Part shown: positions 518 to 54,457 of the stretch, piece after piece
Numbering within the stretch: the first letter of the stretch is position 1
Layout: each line of letters starts with the position of its first letter
Notes under the pieces: generated by a model
What the model was told of the DNA's origin: nothing
Databases searched by the model: none
What the model saw: only the letters and a program-made list of their open reading frames with translations
Source of the DNA: Deltaproteobacteria bacterium
GTDB taxonomy: Bacteria > Desulfobacterota > Dissulfuribacteria > Dissulfuribacterales > UBA5754
DNA length: 64,000 nt
NCBI GenBank assembly: GCA_036574075.1
Contig: JAINCN010000021.1
Span: 1-64,000, forward strand
Direction: 5' to 3'
Translations under genes and position numbers: made by a program

Positions 518-691
518 CCTGAATCCGTGAGATATCCACTCAACCATTCGATTTTACAAAATCAGCCTACGGCCAGGGTGTTTGTGGAGTGAGGCGCCCA
601 CGGACGGGCGCCGTCGGCAAATCCGCCCCCATGGACGGGGGCTATTTGCCGCACGGAACAAATACCCTGGCCGTAGGCTCACGGATTCAGG
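518..691 (+). mobile_element. MITE-like repeat, copy 1 (subfamily 1)
   Basis: A 174-bp non-coding element. It starts with the terminal inverted repeat CCTGAATCCGTGAG (518-531) and ends with CTCACGGATTCAGG (678-691). It is flanked by a direct 5-bp duplication ATTTT (513-517 and 692-696). Inside, a long imperfect stem pairs GCCTACGGCCAGGGT with ACCCTGGCCGTAGGC near the right end, and a central hairpin is bounded by GGCAAAT/ATTTGCC. A related uninterrupted target sequence exists in inverse orientation at 3891-3932, supporting true insertion. It encodes no transposase, so mobility would need one in trans. Confidence 0.85.
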
Positions 692-769: not shown

Positions 770-1711
770 CTAACGGAATCCACCTTGTCGCCAGATCCTC
801 CACAAGGCCCTGCATGCAGCCAGATGCGGGAAACGGGAAGACTCAAGGGAGACATGGGCCTTGACCCCGGAATGCCTCTCTATCTTCCAGAAGATGTAGG
901 GTATCCCGCCCCTGAAGGTAAGGAGGCCTTTCAGCAATCTGAGTATGGAGAGGGCCTTGCCGAGGATGCGTCGGGTAGCCCATACGAAGCCCGCCCAGGC
1001 ATGCCTGATCCCGCCGGTCCGGGGTCTGTATGCCCCGGGCTGGGTGTCGGAATCCGGAGGGCCGAGGACGAATGTAGTGACGGACTCATAATAATCACGA
1101 TCGGCAAGAAAGAGGGCTCGTGCCCTGTCCGGGCCTTCGCTCCTGATCTCAGATGCATACGTCAGGGCAAATCCTGTCTGCCAGAGGTCCATCGGGGTGA
1201 AAGGGGCGTTCATCACGGCAGTGGTCTCTTGAATGAACCGGCGGATCGCCACCTCGAAGGCATGGAGCATCTCCTCCGTGATGGCCTGATTGCGGCTGTA
1301 GGCTATGCGCACAGGCTGGGCGAACCTGGCCCAGAAATAGGGATGGAACCCCAGCCGGATCCCTGAGGCAAAGGCCTTTCGGGAGACCACGGCGTACTTG
1401 GCCCGATAGGTCGATCCCTGGAAAGGGACCTCGAGATAATAGACATTGGGGGGGAGGATCTGATTCAAAAGGGCGGTAAAAAGGCCTCCCAGGGCCTGAC
1501 GGTAGCCATCCACGATGAGATATAGATCCACGATCCCATCTACCGAGACCCCGGTGCGGAGACAGGAGCCGTAAAAAAGGATTGCGGCGGATCCGCTGTG
1601 GCGCTCGACCAGCACATTCGACATGGCAGTAACAGGACCGGGGACCGGGGCTGTGGCATATCCCTGCAAGAGGCCTCGAAGGTCACCCTGGGAGAGATGC
1701 GGATCAGACAC
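770..1711 (-). CDS. Tam41-like phosphatidate cytidylyltransferase (nucleotidyltransferase fold)
   Basis: This 313-aa protein probably makes CDP-diacylglycerol from phosphatidic acid and CTP. It has a nucleotidyltransferase signature: FYGS near residue 48, then VDLYLIVDG near 61-69, matching the G-S...D-(x5)-D layout of Tam41. Further on, PPNVYYLE, YRAKYAVVSR and FHPYFWARFAQPVRI resemble the Tam41 blocks that bind lipid and nucleotide. The GTG start at 1711 gives an 8-nt overlap with the upstream kinase-like gene; an ATG at 1777 would overlap it by 74 nt. As last gene of a lipase-kinase-type cassette (CDP-alcohol phosphatidyltransferase, diacylglycerol kinase, this gene), it would connect the kinase product to the transferase substrate. 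Assignment rests on motif recall, so a more general nucleotidyltransferase remains possible. Confidence 0.6.
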   Translation of the reverse strand: MSDPHLSQGDLRGLLQGYATAPVPGPVTAMSNVLVERHSGSAAILFYGSCLRTGVSVDGIVDLYLIVDGYRQALGGLFTALLNQILPPNVYYLEVPFQGSTYRAKYAVVSRKAFASGIRLGFHPYFWARFAQPVRIAYSRNQAITEEMLHAFEVAIRRFIQETTAVMNAPFTPMDLWQTGFALTYASEIRSEGPDRARALFLADRDYYESVTTFVLGPPDSDTQPGAYRPRTGGIRHAWAGFVWATRRILGKALSILRLLKGLLTFRGGIPYIFWKIERHSGVKAHVSLESSRFPHLAACRALWRIWRQGGFR

Positions 1712-2696
1712 GGAGGAACCTGAGGGGCCCTGCAGGCGTGATGGTGATGGCCCCATCATTTTCAAACAACTGTCCATCCAGTGTGAAGGCGCCGCGAAAG
1801 GCGAGATCGAGGCGGGAAGTGGTCCGGCTGCAATAGCCGTTTTCCTCGGTCATGAGGACATGGGGACGCCCCCGCACCAGAGATGGGAGGCACCTGACGA
1901 GGGATGCCGGCCTGGAAGAGACGGCCGTAAACTTAAGCGGTGAAGACCCTGCACCCCAATAGGGCCTCAGCCCGAGTAACAACCTCTCGAGGGTGGTCGC
2001 CATGGAGAAAAGGACCTCCTGAAAGGGAATGGGGGCCCTGTCCGCAGAGATCCCTGCTGAAACAGGGGGGACCACCCCTCTGTTGCCGCGAAAAAGTAGC
2101 GAAAAAAGGAGGTAAAGGACCGTAACACCGCAGAGTATCTCCCCCCGGAGACCTCCGGGATTTACCTGGCTGTGAAAGAGCTCGATGCCCTGGCAGATGG
2201 CGCCTATCCCAAAGAACATCCCGTAGAGGGGGAGGGAAGGACGGGCTGCATCCACCTTGAGGATGAAACGCTCGAAAAGATGTGCGTATCCTGTGGAGAC
2301 CCCGCCATTCCATGCCTCGAGGATCCGTTTGAAGGCCTTAGACGGATGGCCCTCGACCCCTGCATCCCGGGCGAGCATACTCGTCGTCCCTGACCTCAAG
2401 AGGCAGAGGACCGGTGGGGACGGAAACATCCCATGGTTGAAGAGGGCGGTAAGGACGGCCTGGACCGTCCCGTCCCCCCCATTGATCACGAGAAGGCCGA
2501 TCCTTTCCCTCGAAAGGGCCAAAAGCCCCTCAGTGATCTCCTTGGGGGTCGTCCCTTCAGCCAAAACCAGGTCGGAAACACGAGTCAGCCAGGGATATCC
2601 CCTGCGGTTGCCTCCGCTCGAGGGGTTGGTAAGTACTCCGATCGGACCTTGCAGGTCACACGCACGGGGACACAGACCCCCGGATGGGATGGCCAT
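1704..2696 (-). CDS. Diacylglycerol/lipid kinase family protein
   Basis: This 330-aa protein belongs to the DAGK catalytic fold that phosphorylates lipid alcohols such as diacylglycerol with ATP. The N-terminal part shows a GVLTNPSSGGNRR-like nucleotide-binding strand and the hallmark VINGGDGTVQAVL (GGDGT loop). The C-terminal half ends with a beta-rich segment (LDGQLFENDGAITITPAGPL), as in YegS/DgkB-type proteins. The ATG at 2696 lies one base after the stop of the upstream CDP-alcohol phosphatidyltransferase; a longer frame up to 2831 would run inside that gene and is rejected. Expected product is phosphatidic acid, the substrate of the Tam41-like enzyme encoded next. Confidence 0.8.
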   Translation of the reverse strand: MAIPSGGLCPRACDLQGPIGVLTNPSSGGNRRGYPWLTRVSDLVLAEGTTPKEITEGLLALSRERIGLLVINGGDGTVQAVLTALFNHGMFPSPPVLCLLRSGTTSMLARDAGVEGHPSKAFKRILEAWNGGVSTGYAHLFERFILKVDAARPSLPLYGMFFGIGAICQGIELFHSQVNPGGLRGEILCGVTVLYLLFSLLFRGNRGVVPPVSAGISADRAPIPFQEVLFSMATTLERLLLGLRPYWGAGSSPLKFTAVSSRPASLVRCLPSLVRGRPHVLMTEENGYCSRTTSRLDLAFRGAFTLDGQLFENDGAITITPAGPLRFLRV

Positions 2697-2697
2697 G

Positions 2698-3885
2698 TCA
2701 GCGTTTGATCCCGGTAAACCATCGCTGGGCCAGGGATGGATGGGGATCTCCGGGATCCACGTCCAGGAACCAGGACCGCAAGGCCCCTTTGCGATGCCTT
2801 TCCCAAAATCCTTCCAAAAGCCGCACCACAAGAAAAAGACTGGTGATCACGGTCCAGAGCGCAACCCACAGGAGTCCGAGGTCAGGCCGTCCGAAAAGGG
2901 TGCCTGTGGTCAAGAGGATGAGATTCGGATTTCGCCGGGCAGTGATCAGACGAAAAAAGGAATCAATCGGTCTCCATCCAAAGATCCCTGACGGTTCGAG
3001 GCACGCCTTGAAGATCCCCTCGCACAGGCGACCGGCGATGTATCCTGCAAAAATCATACAGTATGCAGCGGTCAGGGAAACAGGGATCCACGGGTCCCAC
3101 CTGCCGAGACCTAATCCCCATACCAGGTACCAGATGGGCGGAGAAACAAGATCTATGGCGTGATCGTATATGTGCCCGAACTCGCTCGACCTGAGGGTCA
3201 CCCGGGCAAGTTTTCCGTCCACGGTGTCAAGAAAGGTCATCAGCCAGGCCGCAGCAAGCCCACCCATCCATTCCCCTTGATAAAAGAGGAACCCGGCAAG
3301 GATCACGAGGATAAAGCCGAGCGATGTCACATGGTTGGGACGGATGCCAAACCGAACGCACATCCTGGTCACCCAAAAGGCCGGAACAGGCCAGACCCAC
3401 TTGGTTACAAGATCCGTTACACCTTTGTAGGACCTATAATAAAGCCCTTCCTCCACGGAAAAGACGGATGCCGAATCCACAGGATACAGATACGGCTCGT
3501 CTATCTTCCGCAGCTTCCTCTGATAGGACGAGGCTATCGTATGAGGCGTCTCGAAGGAAAGAGGCGGAAGCCGGTCCTTTTCACATCGGCCGGTCATAAA
3601 GTCATGGACCGTCCGGGCGTCACCCGACCTGACATGGGCGGCAACGGGTATGTCGCCGCGAAGAAGGATGCACCCGACTTTTTGAGCGAGTCCCGCAAGG
3701 ATCCGGTCGTCAAAGACGTGATCCCCCCGAAGCAGGATGACCGTCTCGCAGGCGTCTGCCTGATCAGGATCCGGAATCCACTGCCTTACACCGATTTTCT
3801 CAAGGGCCTTCTCAAGACGCTCCCGGCAGGTCAGGCCCCAAACACGCACGGGTGTCTCCTGGAAGACACAGGCACAGGCCGTCAT
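2698..3885 (-). CDS. CDP-alcohol phosphatidyltransferase with N-terminal nucleotidyltransferase-like region
   Basis: A 395-aa integral membrane enzyme that transfers a phospho-alcohol from a CDP-activated donor. The family signature D-x2-DG-x2-AR-x8-G-x3-D-x3-D is complete at residues 220-245 (DTVDGKLAR, then GHIYDHAID). Several hydrophobic segments surround it, from about residue 165 to 375. The first ~130 residues are soluble and contain VILLRGDHVFD and PVAAHV, resembling the remnant sugar-nucleotidyltransferase domain fused to inositol-phosphate-type transferases. It is the first gene of the three-gene minus-strand cassette. The alcohol acceptor cannot be told from sequence; phosphatidylinositol-phosphate-like products are one possibility. 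Confidence 0.85.
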   Translation of the reverse strand: MTACACVFQETPVRVWGLTCRERLEKALEKIGVRQWIPDPDQADACETVILLRGDHVFDDRILAGLAQKVGCILLRGDIPVAAHVRSGDARTVHDFMTGRCEKDRLPPLSFETPHTIASSYQRKLRKIDEPYLYPVDSASVFSVEEGLYYRSYKGVTDLVTKWVWPVPAFWVTRMCVRFGIRPNHVTSLGFILVILAGFLFYQGEWMGGLAAAWLMTFLDTVDGKLARVTLRSSEFGHIYDHAIDLVSPPIWYLVWGLGLGRWDPWIPVSLTAAYCMIFAGYIAGRLCEGIFKACLEPSGIFGWRPIDSFFRLITARRNPNLILLTTGTLFGRPDLGLLWVALWTVITSLFLVVRLLEGFWERHRKGALRSWFLDVDPGDPHPSLAQRWFTGIKR

Positions 3886-3890
3886 GTTAG

Positions 3891-3925
3891 TTATATCTCA
3901 CCACACAGAGGGCACAGAGAAAATC
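3891..3925 (-). repeat. CTCTGTG-rich repeat, right copy of the inverted pair
   Basis: Its reverse complement starts GATTTTCTCTGTGCCCTCTG and ends TGGTGAGATATAA, matching 691-732. Together with the adjacent bases to 3932 it represents the target site of copy 1 without the inserted element (CATCGAGAGATTTTCTCTG here, versus CATCATAGAGAA-ATTTT before the element and CTCTGTG after it). Confidence 0.7.
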
Positions 3926-3931
3926 TCTCGA

Positions 3932-3960
3932 TGTTGAATGCATATTTCATGGATTTGCGA
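3932..3960 (-). repeat. Decayed left end of a MITE-like repeat
   Basis: GTTGAATGCATATTTCATGG followed by ATTTGCG is a degraded reverse complement of the left end of subfamily-1 elements (CCTGAATCCGTGAAATATGC then ACTCAAC, as at 9159). No stem or second terminal repeat remains. Confidence 0.5.
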
Positions 3961-3985
3961 GGTATCATAGTGAATCTTTAATGCC

Positions 3986-4939
3986 ATGAAAACCCCACAA
4001 GTCCAACCAGAAACAAAAGAGGCGTCACCCCCCACCTGTCTGCTCCTCGCCCACATCTCAGATCTGCACATGATGGGACAGAAAGATTTCCGTATCAGGT
4101 CTCTTCTGAGTAAACGCATCCTCGGATATCTCTCATGGCGCTTCAAAAGGGGGAAACATCATCAGGTCCGCGTCCTTGACGCCCTGCTGGAAGACCTGAG
4201 ACAGATACGCCCCAATCACGTCGCCATCACAGGGGACCTCACACATCTCGGGACGCCAGGTGAGTGCGTCAAGGCACGCGCATGGCTGGAACGCCTTGGA
4301 AGGCCCCATGATGTGACCGTCATCCCCGGCAACCACGACACCTACGTCAAGGAGCCATGGGAAAGGACCCTGATTCATTGGGCGCCCTTCATGACGGATA
4401 ATGGGACGCATGGACCTTCCGCATTTCCGTTTCTCAGGGTCCGAGGTCCGGTGGCCATCATCGGACTTTCAAGCGCACGCCCTACCCCGCCGTTTCTTGC
4501 CACCGGATATCTTGGGAGATCTCAACTCGAAAGGCTGGCGACACTCCTCGTGGAAACGGGCCGCCAAGGACTCATGCGTGTCATCCTCATCCATCATCCT
4601 CCGGTGCCAGGGAGCATCACGTGGAGAAAACGGCTGGTGGACGGACAAGAATTTTGCCATGTCATTCGGCGCCACGGGGCAGAACTCGTCCTCCATGGCC
4701 ATGCCCACATCCCACTTTTCAGGGAAATTGACGCGCACGGGAAAAGGATTCCTGTCATCGGCGTTCCTTCTGCTTCGTGCATCCTCCCAGGCCGGGGGGA
4801 AATGGCCCGGTATCACCTCTTCAACATCCGGAAAAAGGCTGGAGGATGTGAGGTGCTCCTCGTAATACGGGGCTATGACCCTTCCCTGAATCGGTTTCTC
4901 GACATGGAGAAAAAGGCCATGGTCATCCCCTTCTCCTGA
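3986..4939 (+). CDS. Calcineurin-like metallophosphoesterase
   Basis: A 317-aa soluble binuclear-metal phosphoesterase. All metal-binding motifs are present: ISDLHM (residues ~24-29), TGDLTHLG, PGNHDTY, the single His of ILIHHPPVP, and LHGHAHIP. The layout fits class III cyclic-nucleotide phosphodiesterase-like and LpxH-like proteins. It converges with lptG, overlapping its end by 17 bp. Because it lies between a phospholipid cassette and the LPS transporter genes, a lipid or lipid A precursor (UDP-diacylglucosamine) substrate is conceivable, but nothing in the sequence fixes the substrate. Confidence 0.8.
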   Translation: MKTPQVQPETKEASPPTCLLLAHISDLHMMGQKDFRIRSLLSKRILGYLSWRFKRGKHHQVRVLDALLEDLRQIRPNHVAITGDLTHLGTPGECVKARAWLERLGRPHDVTVIPGNHDTYVKEPWERTLIHWAPFMTDNGTHGPSAFPFLRVRGPVAIIGLSSARPTPPFLATGYLGRSQLERLATLLVETGRQGLMRVILIHHPPVPGSITWRKRLVDGQEFCHVIRRHGAELVLHGHAHIPLFREIDAHGKRIPVIGVPSASCILPGRGEMARYHLFNIRKKAGGCEVLLVIRGYDPSLNRFLDMEKKAMVIPFS

Positions 4940-5987
4940 TCCACCAGAGACTCGCAACAAGCAGGAGAGATCCCGGGAACAGGGTAGTCCATGCCGCCGA
5001 GATCCCGTGGATGAGGCCGGCGTATCCACCGATCCGGTTCGCGTAGTAGAGCCCGATCCCCAGGACAGACCCGGCCATGATCCTGTGGCTGTATCTAAGA
5101 TCTCGAGAAAAACCGATGGAAAATATCAGGGAGAAAAAGAGCATGCCTGCGGTCCAGACTGGCATGGCAAGCATTTTCCAAAGGGCGAGTTCATATCGGC
5201 TGGCATTCTGCCCCTTTTTGTGCAAAAGGCGGATGGAATCCCAGAGTTCGGAAAAGGAAAGGGTCTCGGCCGGCAAGGACAATTCCTCAGCCTGCTTAGG
5301 TGTAAGCAGCTGGTCGAGAATCCTTGCAGGCTCCATCTCGCCGGTGGCTGCGGCCACTGGTTTCCCCACATGAACCGCATGCGTATCAGTGAGTCTCCAC
5401 TGATCATTGGTTACCGAGATCACCGCAGTGATGTATCGGCTCACATTTTCCGAGACATCCAGATAATACATGTCCACGACATCTTTTCCCGTCAGGGCAT
5501 CCCTATACAGGTTGACAAAGACCCCGTGACCCCGTGTCCAGAAACCCTCTTCCGGAAGGAACGTCCCCAATGGGGATAGGGCCGTCACCCGGCTTATCCA
5601 TGCCGTCTGTTCCAGGGGAGGGATGAGAAACTGGCCGCAGAGAAGTGCAGCGAAGAGGACCGGGACGGATGCGACCAAGAGTGAACGTCCGATGGAGAGG
5701 ACAGAGATCCCGCACGCCCTCAGGGCAAGGATCTCCTGATGTTGCGACAGGAGGCCGATGGCCCCTATGCCTCCGAGAAAGGCGCTCGTGGGGGCGAGTT
5801 CGAACATGTGCCCTGGAATCCTCAAGAGGACCTGGAGAAGTGCCTGGGAAAATCCGTAACTCCCCTTGCCGATTGCGTCCAGTTCCCTTGCCAGATCAAG
5901 AAAGGCTACAAGGCCGGCAAGGACCAGATTCGCCGTCCACCAGTTGATTAGAAACACCCTGCCGATATATCCGTGAAGTATCCTCAC
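4923..5987 (-). CDS. lptG: LPS export ABC transporter permease LptG
   Basis: A 354-aa inner-membrane permease of the YjgP/YjgQ family. With LptF and the LptB ATPase it extracts lipopolysaccharide from the inner membrane. Three N-terminal membrane helices (about residues 10-125), a periplasmic jellyroll region with LPEEGFWTRGHGVFVN and YYLDVSE, and three C-terminal helices (about 265-350) give the typical family architecture. Its ATG overlaps the stop of lptF by 4 nt (ATGA), so the two are translationally coupled. lptB and the lptA/lptC genes are not in this window. Confidence 0.9.
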   Translation of the reverse strand: MRILHGYIGRVFLINWWTANLVLAGLVAFLDLARELDAIGKGSYGFSQALLQVLLRIPGHMFELAPTSAFLGGIGAIGLLSQHQEILALRACGISVLSIGRSLLVASVPVLFAALLCGQFLIPPLEQTAWISRVTALSPLGTFLPEEGFWTRGHGVFVNLYRDALTGKDVVDMYYLDVSENVSRYITAVISVTNDQWRLTDTHAVHVGKPVAAATGEMEPARILDQLLTPKQAEELSLPAETLSFSELWDSIRLLHKKGQNASRYELALWKMLAMPVWTAGMLFFSLIFSIGFSRDLRYSHRIMAGSVLGIGLYYANRIGGYAGLIHGISAAWTTLFPGSLLLVASLWWIRRRG

Positions 5988-7069
5988 CGGGGATGTCTCT
6001 CCTCATGGGCAGGCCGCGCCCGCAGCCGGATCAGGGGCTTGAAGAAGAGGACAGACACCACGGCGGCAAGCAGGATGTCCACCATCCACACGCCGGGAAA
6101 GGCGGCGAGGACCCCCTTTTCCACACCGGTCTTGGCAATGAGGGACAGGATGTAATAGGCAAAAAAGGCAAGGATGCCTATCGTGGCCCTGCCATACACG
6201 TCCCTGCCCTGAACGTGGAGGCCAAGAAAAACCGCGAGCAGGGAAATGAGAAGGAGTGAAGGGCCTGTGGAGACCCTCCACTCATATTCGGCAACTGCCT
6301 TTGGAACGCCGAAGGCCAAGAGCCTGGAGGTCTCCGCGGCCTTGATACGCCTCTCAATAGGTCTTAGCCTGGGAGGTTTCAGGCGCACCCACCCTTTATC
6401 AAACTGGATGGTCAGGACGGTTTCGTCCCCACCCAAGACGGTCTGGACCCCTTTTTGAAAAAACAGGGATCTCCCCTCTGGTGCATCCATCTGGGAGGCC
6501 CTCAGGGCATGAGTCACCTTGCGACGCTGGTCTTCTTTCTCCCAGACATGGACACCTTCGGCCTCACCCTTGCTATGATCCATCTTCTCACAGAAAAAGA
6601 CCCGTCCGCCCCCGATCTCGTAAAACCTGCCAGGCTCTATCTTGGCCAGATCGAATTGGCCCTGCGCCGCAGACTCTATGCCGTAAAGCCTCTCATACGC
6701 CCAGGGGCGAACATAAAAGGACAGGAGTGCGACCAGCACGGAAAGGGGCACGGAAAGCAGGATGACGGAGCACGATATGCGCCCCCGGCCGATTCCGCAG
6801 GCCTCGAGCGCAGTAATCTCGTTTTCGGCATGGAGACGGCCAAGCGCGAGTATAATGGAGAGAAAAAACGTGACCGGAAAGATCACCTCAAATGCGATGA
6901 GCAACTTGAGAAAGACGAGGATGGCAACGGTTTTGGCAGGCAAAAGCCCGTTCACAACGTCATTTAGGAGGCGGACCGCGCCAAAACCTGAATAGATCGC
7001 CCCGAGAACGGAAAACACGCCCATTTGAGGGATGAGGATCTCTCGGGCTATGTACCGGTCAAGGATCAC
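5984..7069 (-). CDS. lptF: LPS export ABC transporter permease LptF
   Basis: A 361-aa partner of LptG with the same six-helix plus periplasmic-domain design; the protein begins VILDRYIAREILIPQ, typical of LptF. I chose GTG at 7069 because AAAGGA lies 5-7 nt upstream and it gives the canonical N-terminus. An ATG at 7111 would add 14 atypical residues. Residues ~150-260 form the periplasmic part (FYEIGGGRVFFCEKMD). Membrane helices occupy roughly the first 110 and last 90 residues. Confidence 0.88.
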   Translation of the reverse strand: MILDRYIAREILIPQMGVFSVLGAIYSGFGAVRLLNDVVNGLLPAKTVAILVFLKLLIAFEVIFPVTFFLSIILALGRLHAENEITALEACGIGRGRISCSVILLSVPLSVLVALLSFYVRPWAYERLYGIESAAQGQFDLAKIEPGRFYEIGGGRVFFCEKMDHSKGEAEGVHVWEKEDQRRKVTHALRASQMDAPEGRSLFFQKGVQTVLGGDETVLTIQFDKGWVRLKPPRLRPIERRIKAAETSRLLAFGVPKAVAEYEWRVSTGPSLLLISLLAVFLGLHVQGRDVYGRATIGILAFFAYYILSLIAKTGVEKGVLAAFPGVWMVDILLAAVVSVLFFKPLIRLRARPAHEERHPR

Positions 7070-7194
7070 GGCTTTCCTTTCATGGGAGATACCAGTACGA
7101 CACGACAGCACAGACCCGGTTTTTGCATTACAATAATTTTTTGTTTTTATTAATGGAAGAAGGCAGCTATCAGTTATCAGCTATCAGCAAAAAC

Positions 7195-7400
7195 CCTGAA
7201 TCCGTGAGATATGAACTTAACTTCCTGAATCCGTGAAATATGCCCTCAACCTTTCGATTTCACAGCATAAGCCTGCGGCCGGGGTATTTGTGGATGGAGG
7301 CGCCCACGGATGGGGCTCGAACGGCAAATCCGCCCCCATGGACAGGAGGCTATTTGCCGCACGGAACAAATAACCTGGCCCGTAGGCTCACGGATTCAGG
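7195..7400 (+). mobile_element. MITE-like repeat, copy 2 (composite of two subfamilies)
   Basis: An outer terminal repeat CCTGAATCCGTGAG at 7195 is followed by the subfamily-2 box AGATATGAACTTAACTT. A second terminal repeat starts at 7224, leading into a complete subfamily-1 element that ends CTCACGGATTCAGG at 7400. A direct repeat AAAAAC (7189-7194 and 7401-7406) flanks the outer composite, not the inner element. This suggests the left end was duplicated or replaced after insertion. The internal stem of this copy has decayed (AACCTGGCCCG on the right arm). Confidence 0.8.
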
Positions 7401-9158: not shown

Positions 9159-9334
9159 CCTGAATCCGTGAAATATGCACTCAACCTTTCGATTTCACAG
9201 CATAAGCCTACAGCCGGGGTATTTGCGGATGGAGGCGCCCATGGAAGGGGCTCGAACGGCAAATCTGCCCCCATGGACAGGAGGCTATTTGCCGCACGAA
9301 ACAGATACCCCGGCCGCAGGCTCACGGATTCAGG
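9159..9334 (+). mobile_element. MITE-like repeat, copy 3 (subfamily 1)
   Basis: A 176-bp element with terminal repeats CCTGAATCCGTGAA (9159) and CTCACGGATTCAGG (ending 9334). It carries the subfamily-1 subterminal box (ATATGCACTCAACC then TTTCGATTTCACAGC) and arms GCCTACAGCCGGGGTA and TACCCCGGCCGCAGGC. Two A-C mismatches have accumulated in the stem. No target duplication is recognisable (GAGTT versus GGTAG), suggesting an older insertion. Confidence 0.8.
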
Positions 9335-39226: not shown

Positions 39227-39369
39227 CCTGAATCCGTGAGCCGACGTTCGGGGTATTTGTTCCGTGCGGCAAATAGCCCCCGTCCATGGGCGCTTCCATC
39301 CACAAATACCCCGAACGTCGGCTTATTGTGAAAAATTGCCAAGTTAAGTTCATATCTCACGGATTCAGG
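39227..39369 (-). mobile_element. MITE-like repeat, copy 6 (subfamily 2, deleted form)
   Basis: A 143-bp element in inverse orientation with perfect 14-bp terminal repeats. The stem GCCGACGTTCGGGGTATTTG pairs perfectly with the right arm CAAATACCCCGAACGTCGGC. The subterminal box is subfamily 2 (GAAAAATTGCCAAGTTAAGT then TCATAT). The centre is shortened as in copy 4. Flanks CAGTA and CATTA are an imperfect target duplication. Confidence 0.85.
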
Positions 39370-43077: not shown

Positions 43078-43252
43078 GTTTAATCCGTGAGCCGGCGTTC
43101 GGGGTATTTGTTCCGTGCGGCAAATAGCCCCCGTCCATGGGGGCGGATTTGCCGTTCGAGCCCCGTCCATGGGCGCCTCACTCCACAAATACCCCGAACG
43201 CCGGCTTATTTTGAAAAATTGCTAAGTTAAGTTCATATCTCACGGATTAAGG
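43078..43252 (-). mobile_element. MITE-like repeat, copy 7 (subfamily 2)
   Basis: A 175-bp full-length element in inverse orientation, flanked by TTTTC (43073-43077 and 43253-43257), in fact by TTTTCGTTT on both sides. Terminal repeats differ from consensus at a matched position (GTTTAATCCGTGAG and CTCACGGATTAAGG). The stem GCCGGCGTTCGGGG pairs with CCCCGAACGCCGGC, an A-T to G-C change on both arms relative to copies 6 and 9. Confidence 0.88.
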
Positions 43253-46336: not shown

Positions 46337-46511
46337 CTCTGAAAACGAGTCGACTTTCGGGGTGTTTGTTCCGTGCGGCAAATAGCCTCCTGTCCATGGA
46401 GGCGGATTTGCCGTTCGAGCCCCATCCATAGGCGCTTCACTCCCTAAACACCCCGAACGTCGACTTATTGTGAAAAATTGCTAAGTTAAGTTCATATCTC
46501 ACGGATTCAGG
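46337..46511 (-). mobile_element. MITE-like repeat, copy 8 (subfamily 2) between dnaG and rpoD
   Basis: A 175-bp element in inverse orientation. The left end is degenerate (CTCTGAAAACGAG); the right end CTCACGGATTCAGG is intact. Stem arms GTCGACTTTCGGGGTGTTT and AAACACCCCGAACGTCGAC pair with one mismatch. Relative to other subfamily-2 copies, GTATTT/AAATAC has become GTGTTT/AAACAC and GCC/GGC has become GTC/GAC. It ends 7 nt before the rpoD ATG. Confidence 0.85.
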
Positions 46512-46518
46512 AGAGCGC
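46508..46518 (+). promoter_or_regulatory. rpoD Shine-Dalgarno formed by the MITE end
   Basis: CAGG, the last bases of the element, joined to AGAGCGC gives AGGAG (46509-46513) 5 nt before the ATG at 46519. The ribosome-binding site of the primary sigma factor is therefore partly element-derived. Confidence 0.6.
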
Positions 46519-49848: not shown

Positions 49849-50024
49849 CCTGAATCCGTGAGATATGAACTTAACTTAGCAATTTTTCACAATAAGCCGA
49901 CGTTCGGGGTGTTGGTGGATGGAGGCGCCCATGGACGGGGCTCGAACGGCAAATCCGCCCCCATGGACAGGAGGCTATTTGCCGCACGGAACAAATACCC
50001 CGAACGTCGGCTCACAGATTCAGG
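49849..50024 (+). mobile_element. MITE-like repeat, copy 9 (subfamily 2)
   Basis: A 176-bp element flanked by AAAAC (49844-49848 and 50025-50029). Terminal repeats are CCTGAATCCGTGAG and CTCACAGATTCAGG (one mismatch). It has the subfamily-2 box (AGATATGAACTTAACTTAGC) and the stem GCCGACGTTCGGGGTGTTGG against AATACCCCGAACGTCGGC. A frame running through it continues into prmA, but codes nothing recognisable. Confidence 0.88.
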
Positions 50025-52850: not shown

Positions 52851-53393
52851 ATGATCGGTTTTGATACATCTGTCTTCCCTCGCCTTGACCCCCGTCACCC
52901 CGATGCCTTTTATGAAAAGATCCGGGAGATCAGGCAGTGTTTCGAGACAGCCGGGGACCTTGATGCGGTGAAGGAGGCCGCGCGGCGTTTGTCTGAAGAA
53001 TTCAACCGTATCGACCCCTTCATCCAGTCGTATACAACACTCGTCTGCCCCTCCTGCGGGACCGTCTGCTGCGCACAGATCCATGGACTTCCCGAATTCG
53101 CGGATGTGATCGGATTCCATGCATTAGGGCTCTCCATCCCTGCGTACGACCTCACCAGGGACCTCAACGGGCCATGCCAGTTCATGGGCACTTGGGGCTG
53201 CGTCCTTCCCCGCATCCAGAGACCATACCGTTGCACATGGTATTTCTGCGACCCCCTTCTCGTACAGATCGAGATCGGCCCCACCTCCCACTACCGGCAT
53301 TTCATCGAGATGGTCCAGGCCCTCGCCCAGGCCCGCGGGGAACTCATGCGGACGTTTTTCCCGATCTGGGACAGATACGCCAAGGGTCCATGA
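52851..53393 (+). CDS. Cysteine-rich (YkgJ-like) protein
   Basis: A 180-aa protein of unknown function. Cysteines cluster in LVCPSCGTVCCAQIHG, GPCQFMGTWGCVLP and YRCTWYFCDP, the pattern of YkgJ-type putative zinc or iron-binding proteins (CC followed by a C-x-x-x-C-x-x-R-P.C-like block). The N-terminal ~55 residues are helical and cysteine-free. It overlaps the start of the PgsA-like gene, suggesting coupled expression. Confidence 0.65.
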   Translation: MIGFDTSVFPRLDPRHPDAFYEKIREIRQCFETAGDLDAVKEAARRLSEEFNRIDPFIQSYTTLVCPSCGTVCCAQIHGLPEFADVIGFHALGLSIPAYDLTRDLNGPCQFMGTWGCVLPRIQRPYRCTWYFCDPLLVQIEIGPTSHYRHFIEMVQALAQARGELMRTFFPIWDRYAKGP

Positions 53394-54457
53394 TGATCAC
53401 AGCAAACCACCTGACTGTCCTGCGGGTCATCATCCTCCCGCTTCCGTATTTTCTCCTCTACGGAGGGACGTGGTCCCGAATTGCCGCCATCTGCGTCTTT
53501 GCGGCCCTTGGTCTCACAGACTACCTCGACGGCCTCATCGCACGTAGATACGGCCCTACCGAACTGGGCAAGCTCCTGGACCCCATAGCGGACAAGATCT
53601 TTCTCGCCGCAACCCTCGTCCCCCTCGTGGATCTGGGGGTCCTTCCACTCTGGATCGTATGGACCGTTTTTCTGCGGGAATTCCTCGTGACCGAACTTAG
53701 GGCGTGTCTCATGGACATCCACATGGATCTGCCGGTCACTGAACTCGCCAAGATCAAGACCACCATCCAGATGACCGTGGCCGGCCTCGTCCTTCTGACC
53801 GACACCTTCCCGGACAAATTCGTAACGGCTGCATTCCTGGCCGGGGCCTTTCTCGCAACCGCCTTCCTCGCCATCGGCCTCTACTGGCGGGATGGGCACC
53901 TTTCTCAGAGGATCGGCATCGCCCTAGCACTCCTTGCCTTTGGACTCGTTCTGCTGGCCGCACTTGATACCCGCACGGTCATCCTCTCTTATGGATTCAT
54001 CATGCTCGCCGTCACCCTTGCATCAGGAGGACGGTATCTCATAGCGGGCCTTCCATCGTGCCTTGCGAAAAAGGCCCGCGCCGCACCCGGAATCGTCCTC
54101 TCCCTCTCGGTCTTCCTCGCGGCCCTTGCCCTTGCAGGATCGGGAAGATCGCTTTCCGGATACGTAATCCTCATCCTGTCTGTCGGGTTCACTGCCCAGG
54201 GAATAGACATGTGGGCCTTCCAGACGGGGAAAAGGGACATCTCCGCGTGGTGGAGATACCTTGCCGCTCCAGCGGCCCTCTGTGCATTTGCTGTGCTCCC
54301 TGCCTTGGCGGGGAAGGGAAAAGGGGCGGCCCTTTTCCTTCTCATCACGCTTTCTCTTGCTTTTTCATACCTGGTTGTTGATATTTGGATGCACCGAACC
54401 CTGTTTGGAGGTCTTTTTGCAAAAAACCCGTCCCATGACCATCCGCGAGGAGATTGA
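53390..54457 (+). CDS. PgsA-like CDP-alcohol phosphatidyltransferase with C-terminal membrane extension
   Basis: A 355-aa membrane protein. Residues 1-~190 are a PgsA-type enzyme: [15 protein letters not shown] and the D-x2-DG-x2-AR-x8-G-x3-D-x3-D signature as [13 protein letters not shown] then [11 protein letters not shown]. PgsA makes phosphatidylglycerol phosphate from CDP-diacylglycerol and glycerol-3-phosphate. PgsA proteins are usually ~190 aa; here a further ~165 residues with about five hydrophobic helices follow, without a recognised family. ATG 53390 overlaps the Cys-rich gene; the end overlaps the dGTPase gene by 23 nt. Confidence 0.8.

Follow-up and report, generated by a model that had tools for sequence, protein, structure and literature searches.

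The stretch analysed here (the window) comprises 64,000 nucleotides (nt), positions 1 to 64,000 on the forward strand of contig JAINCN010000021.1, assembly GCA_036574075.1, from a deltaproteobacterium of the Dissulfuribacterales (UBA5754). Between positions 770 and 3885 it carries three open reading frames (ORFs), all on the minus strand and in the order C, K, T, encoding a cytidine diphosphate (CDP)-alcohol phosphotransferase (C), a lipid kinase (K) and a protein resembling Tam41 (T). C ends at 2698, leaving 1 nt before the ATG start of K at 2696, and K ends at 1704, overlapping the GTG start of T at 1711 by 8 nt, which bears out the tight packing reported in a preliminary description of this DNA. 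The T start at 1711 was favoured over an upstream ATG at 1777, which would lengthen T, by alignment with 34 relatives. We propose, with a probability of roughly 0.8, that this operon (3885 to 770) encodes the head-group steps of a phosphosphingolipid pathway like the one that makes ceramide phosphoglycerate (CPG) and ceramide diphosphoglycerate (CPG2) in Caulobacter, since its conserved neighbourhood is the same as CC_1152-CC_1161, the remaining pathway genes are present in the genome, T co-occurs with the ceramide synthase CerS, and some genomes encode a K-T fusion.

The assignment of T came chiefly from its predicted fold. Its AlphaFold2 model had a predicted local distance difference test (pLDDT) score of 87.6, and a Foldseek search of the PDB returned Tam41 as the five best matches, 7ecd first (E 1.9e-8) and then four chains of 6ig2/6ig4, with template-modelling (TM) scores against the Tam41 structures of 0.47-0.54 by query length. 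A profile search with T matched 6ig2 at E 1.9e-4, the YGS...D motif was intact in 35/35 T sequences, and the Pfam Tam41 model PF09139 was matched by 20 of the 35 relatives (best E 8.8e-10), so that the Tam41-like call made earlier from the letters alone stands. A PF09139 search was uninformative at the genome level, as it gave no match in the genome itself or in any of 14 control genomes. With Tam41 (PDB 6ig2, 6ig4, 7ecd) T shares, besides the fold, the nucleotidyltransferase start motif and a Ky.v / W...RF..P region; it differs in showing only about 16% identity, in scoring below the Pfam model, and in a gene context pointing toward ceramide-1-phosphate rather than phosphatidic acid. Tam41 proper is a CDP-diacylglycerol synthase.

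K matched DAGK_cat (PF00781) with 42 bits against a cut-off of 23.6. The [GAS]GDG motif was intact in 23/23 K sequences, and PDB matches were to bacterial diacylglycerol/YegS-type lipid kinases and, weakly, to sphingosine kinase. K, a predicted ceramide kinase, resembles the Caulobacter enzyme CpgB in its LCB5/DAGK domain, its GGDG motif, the absence of CxxxCxxC and its neighbourhood, whereas its family is unlike CpgB in being fused to T in some genomes and missing in some gammaproteobacteria that keep T.

C matched CDP-OH_P_transf (PF01066) with 42 bits against a cut-off of 22, and the motif D-x2-DG-x2-AR-x8-G-x3-D-x3-D was intact in 37/37 aligned members. Its model (pLDDT 92.4) matched AF2299, phosphatidylinositol-phosphate (PIP) synthases and IPCT-DIPPS in the PDB, the transferase domain being nearest to archaetidylinositol-phosphate and PIP synthases. 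As in IPCT-DIPPS and AF2299 (PDB 4mnd, 4o6m), a cytidylyltransferase-like domain precedes the CDP-alcohol phosphotransferase membrane domain. The nucleotidyltransferase-like N-terminus described previously was therefore recovered as a resemblance of fold, but its nucleotide-binding motif has been lost: unlike in those two proteins, G-x-G-x-R was absent from the N-terminal part of the aligned members, the single pattern match (L067) lying off the alignment position of the motif. An active cytidylyltransferase in this domain was accordingly rejected, and the active enzyme is instead a separate CpgD-like gene, whose product resembles the cytidylyltransferase half of IPCT-DIPPS. C and the CpgD-like protein thus look like IPCT-DIPPS divided in two, the cytidylyltransferase activity having passed to a gene of its own. 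This favours CDP-glycerate as the donor for C, without proving it.

To place the operon among its relatives, genome contigs were scanned with C alone as the query, giving 63 related loci. C, K and T lay on the same strand and in the same order in 42 of the 63; eight others had C and T but no K alongside, and contig ends truncated most of what remained. This arrangement is not a product of chance. The loci came from Pseudomonadota, Myxococcota, Thermodesulfobacteriota, Nitrospirota, Methylomirabilota, Rokubacteria and one planctomycete bin. Clustering of the neighbours revealed a recurrent wider set consisting of a GNAT protein (CerS), a MobA/CofC-like transferase, a second nucleotidyltransferase (CpgD-like), LptF, LptG, a metallophosphoesterase (MP), C, K and T, its individual genes being present or absent depending on the locus. 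In roughly half of the loci MP was divergent from C and lay immediately upstream of it, and LptF/LptG were paired with C-K-T in many loci. K and T were joined into one protein in seven loci from Nitrosomonas and also in a deltaproteobacterial metagenome-assembled genome (MAG; L061), where the linker differs; such fusion is expected if the product of K is the substrate of T. Many of the loci belong to Nitrosomonas, and this links them to the Caulobacter-type gene set, as Nitrosomonas eutropha is among the organisms with orthologues of the Caulobacter cluster (PMC11324152).

Closer to the host, T is 89% identical in the sole other genome of the genus; most genomes of the rest of the order lack it, and six scattered ones carry it at 37-45%, a patchy distribution that is likely due to loss or transfer. 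Within the phylum (198 genomes), T (E < 1e-40) and CerS were associated (7/11 versus 2/187, Fisher p = 5e-9, in a test that ignores shared ancestry). A CofC-like gene, K and T occur together with C not nearby in two more distant genomes of the phylum (L169, L170), and a Spt-like gene adjoins the cluster in another genome (G056). In G135 and G001, two draft MAGs in which short contigs carry the cluster, T and K were present but no close Spt was. Two further genes were seen in particular groups. Myxococcota-type loci (L062, L077, L079-L084) have between C and K an additional gene of about 310-400 amino acids (aa) with a likely signal peptide, which matched no Pfam family, and in gammaproteobacterial loci T is followed by an Asp/Asn beta-hydroxylase-like gene (L040:11225-12094, L031:11292-12047; PF05118 checked for L040), whose product might hydroxylate the ceramide acyl chain.

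In Caulobacter crescentus, CC_1152-CC_1168 constitutes the CPG/CPG2 cluster (PMC11324152, PMC12275187, PMC10331486). It includes a protein with a predicted CDP-diacylglycerol synthase domain (CC_1161), the ceramide kinase CpgB (CC_1160), a CDP-alcohol transferase (CC_1159), a phosphoesterase (CC_1158), a second LptF/LptG pair (CC_1156/1155), a ceramide synthase (CC_1154), a CofC-like protein (CC_1153) and CpgD (CC_1152) (PMC11324152). LptC2 and a flippase (CC_1168, CC_1166) also belong to the Caulobacter set. By domain, motif, fold and gene order, counterparts of the head-group trio CC_1160, CC_1161 and CC_1159 are present here, and the window also holds those of CC_1158, LptF2 and LptG2. Counterparts of AasR, CerR, AcpR, Spt, CerS, CC_1153 and CpgD lie elsewhere in the genome, the set being split, in contrast to Caulobacter, over at least three contigs. 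Contig C9 (L151) carries a row of genes for a CofC-like protein, CerS, the acyl-AMP ligase AasR, CerR, the acyl carrier protein AcpR, Spt and an MsbA-like ABC transporter; the CofC-like gene and CerS thus sit with the ceramide genes and not, as in Caulobacter, with C-K-T. The CerS-like GNAT protein (C9:11691-12809) is 51% identical to its Nitrosomonas counterpart, and Spt (C9:15963-17132) scored 609.6 bits against the NCBIfam model NF047599 (cut-off 500), its nearest solved structures being serine palmitoyltransferases. The predicted ceramide pathway (spt, cerS, cerR, acpR, aasR) is complete in the genome.

The CpgD-like phosphoglycerate cytidylyltransferase is encoded on contig C50 (L155:6911-7687), and formation of CDP-glycerate by CpgD has been shown in Caulobacter. 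Residues contacting CTP and glycerate in CpgD structures (PMC13228409) were mapped onto 28 CpgD-like relatives by motif spacing; the equivalents of Gly12, Arg16, Asn90, Asn110, Gly111, Met147 and Lys161 were invariant, that of Ser170 was kept in 26/28, and Thr93 was T or S.

The wider genome also carries cdsA (CTP_transf_1 match at 4e-53, contig C45) and pssA-like and pgsA-like genes (phosphatidylserine and phosphatidylglycerol synthase), which cover the need of ordinary lipids for CDP-diacylglycerol, and deletion of cpgB in Caulobacter left the level of phosphatidic acid unchanged (PMC10331486); on both grounds we infer that the substrate of K would be ceramide. Within the window, a 427-aa ORF at 53174-54457 encodes a PgsA-like CDP-alcohol phosphotransferase with additional sequence past the transferase domain.

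The features flanking the operon are collected with it in Table 1. Besides the LptF/LptG pair at 4923-7111, the genome contains a further pair on contig C55. The module from 770 to 7111 is bracketed by two copies of a dispersed repeat, some 175 nt long, that resembles a miniature inverted-repeat transposable element (MITE) and has 14-nt terminal inverted repeats (CCTGAATCCGTGAG ... CTCACGGATTCAGG). In the 2-Mb genome, 40 near-full copies of this repeat were scored among 268 candidate places.

Table 1 Features in and around the C-K-T operon (positions in the window).
Feature	Assignment	Caulobacter counterpart	Position	Strand	Basis
C	CDP-alcohol phosphotransferase with degenerate cytidylyltransferase-like N-terminal domain, 395 aa	CC_1159/CpgA	2698..3885	-	PF01066, motif, model
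K	LCB5/DAGK-family lipid kinase, predicted ceramide kinase, 330 aa	CC_1160/CpgB	1704..2696	-	PF00781, motif
T	Tam41-type nucleotidyltransferase, predicted CTP:ceramide-1-phosphate cytidylyltransferase, 313 aa	CC_1161/CpgC	770..1711	-	fold, profile
MP	Calcineurin-like metallophosphoesterase, divergent to C	CC_1158	3986..4939	+	PF00149
LptG2	Second LptG-type permease		4923..5987	-	PF03739, TIGR04408
LptF2	Second LptF-type permease		5984..7111	-	PF03739, TIGR04407
MITE-like repeat	Dispersed repeat, copies in window		518-691, 7224-7399, 9159-9334, 39227-39369, 43082-43252, 46340-46512, 49849-50024		

In the pathway that we propose, ceramide would be made by the contig C9 gene products (AasR, AcpR, Spt, CerR, CerS) and K would phosphorylate it to ceramide-1-phosphate, as demonstrated for Caulobacter CpgB (PMC10331486). 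T would then transfer CMP from CTP to ceramide-1-phosphate, giving CDP-ceramide as a step toward ceramide phosphoglycerate, and C would add the phosphoglycerate unit, with CDP-glycerate, the product of the CpgD-like enzyme, as the most likely donor. Both MP and the CofC-like protein may assist, and LptF2/LptG2, judged by gene content only, would probably export the finished anionic lipid toward the outer membrane. That T is a CTP:ceramide-1-phosphate cytidylyltransferase, a Tam41-type enzyme recruited to a sphingolipid in place of phosphatidic acid, so that bacterial ceramide is activated as CDP-ceramide, is a proposal to which we give even odds. A nucleotide-activated ceramide has been suggested by the Caulobacter authors (PMC11324152); CDP-ceramide as a named intermediate was not found in the literature searched.

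Several observations weigh against this pathway. T by itself matched no Pfam or NCBIfam family, assignment of the Caulobacter counterparts relied on family and context instead of direct alignment, and in this assembly the operon and the ceramide genes are on different contigs; the shared ancestry ignored in the co-occurrence test has to be counted here as well. In vitro, CpgB phosphorylated diacylglycerol to phosphatidic acid about as well as it did ceramide (PMC10331486). In Caulobacter CC_1159 is dispensable for CPG and required only for CPG2 (PMC11324152), which bears on the question of who uses the product of T. Finally, a K-family gene was absent from the whole genome in four gammaproteobacteria with adjacent C and T (L031, L033, L071, L073), whereas the search did recover its positive control (4e-107); in these genomes ceramide-1-phosphate must come from elsewhere or be unneeded. 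Among other loci, L026 and L066 gave weak generic kinase matches only, and the genome of L046 has its K at another location. In the tree built from C, L031/L033, L071/L073 and L066 occupy three distinct positions.

Among the alternatives, the one that fares best is a variant within the explanation favoured here, in which C moves ceramide-phosphate from CDP-ceramide onto a phosphoglycerate in the manner of a PIP synthase. The archaetidylinositol-phosphate and PIP synthases nearest to C do use a CDP-lipid together with a soluble phosphate, and no genes of the cluster are held together more tightly than C, K and T. However, the CpgD-like partner supplies CDP-glycerate, a ready donor for C, the DIPPS enzymes related to C work with a soluble CDP-alcohol, and C is dispensable for CPG in Caulobacter, so we regard this variant as doubtful, though it deserves more weight than the others. 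It is improbable that the ceramide backbone is kept but bears a different head group in this lineage, such as inositol or another polar phosphate: inositol-lipid enzymes are found among the relatives of C, individual genes vary among loci and contig C33 encodes another PIP/archaetidylinositol-phosphate-synthase-like protein, but a CofC-like gene and a CpgD-like gene are present, the latter with its inferred glycerate-contact residues conserved. Because of this CpgD-like enzyme, glycerate is also a more likely head group than the inositol- or glycerol-phosphate type put forward in the preliminary description.

That description had read the three genes as a self-contained route in which K converts diacylglycerol to phosphatidic acid, T forms CDP-diacylglycerol and C a dedicated glycerophospholipid. 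Kinase, activation and transfer remain plausible as successive steps, K and T being fused in some genomes, but the lipid is probably ceramide, genes on contigs C9 and C50 are needed, and with cdsA and the pssA-like and pgsA-like genes in place there would be no need for a Tam41-type enzyme to stand in for CdsA on the diacylglycerol side. Although the K family includes diacylglycerol kinases, CpgB makes phosphatidic acid in vitro, Tam41 proper yields CDP-diacylglycerol and C resembles PIP synthases, which use it, the diacylglycerol route was rejected as the principal explanation on genome content and is improbable, given also the complete ceramide pathway, the sphingolipid character of the cluster content and co-occurrence, and the unchanged phosphatidic acid of the cpgB mutant.

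The Caulobacter-type cluster was described for alpha-, beta- and gammaproteobacteria (PMC11324152), and the present host, from a sparsely sampled lineage, lies outside these groups. The head-group genes, many with a dedicated LptF/LptG pair, thus occur well beyond them. Anionic sphingolipids allow Caulobacter to live without lipopolysaccharide. The K-T fusions and the loci without K provide concrete material for settling the CpgC step, which, if our assignment of T is true, would represent a Tam41-type enzyme acting on a sphingolipid, with CDP-ceramide as a bacterial intermediate.

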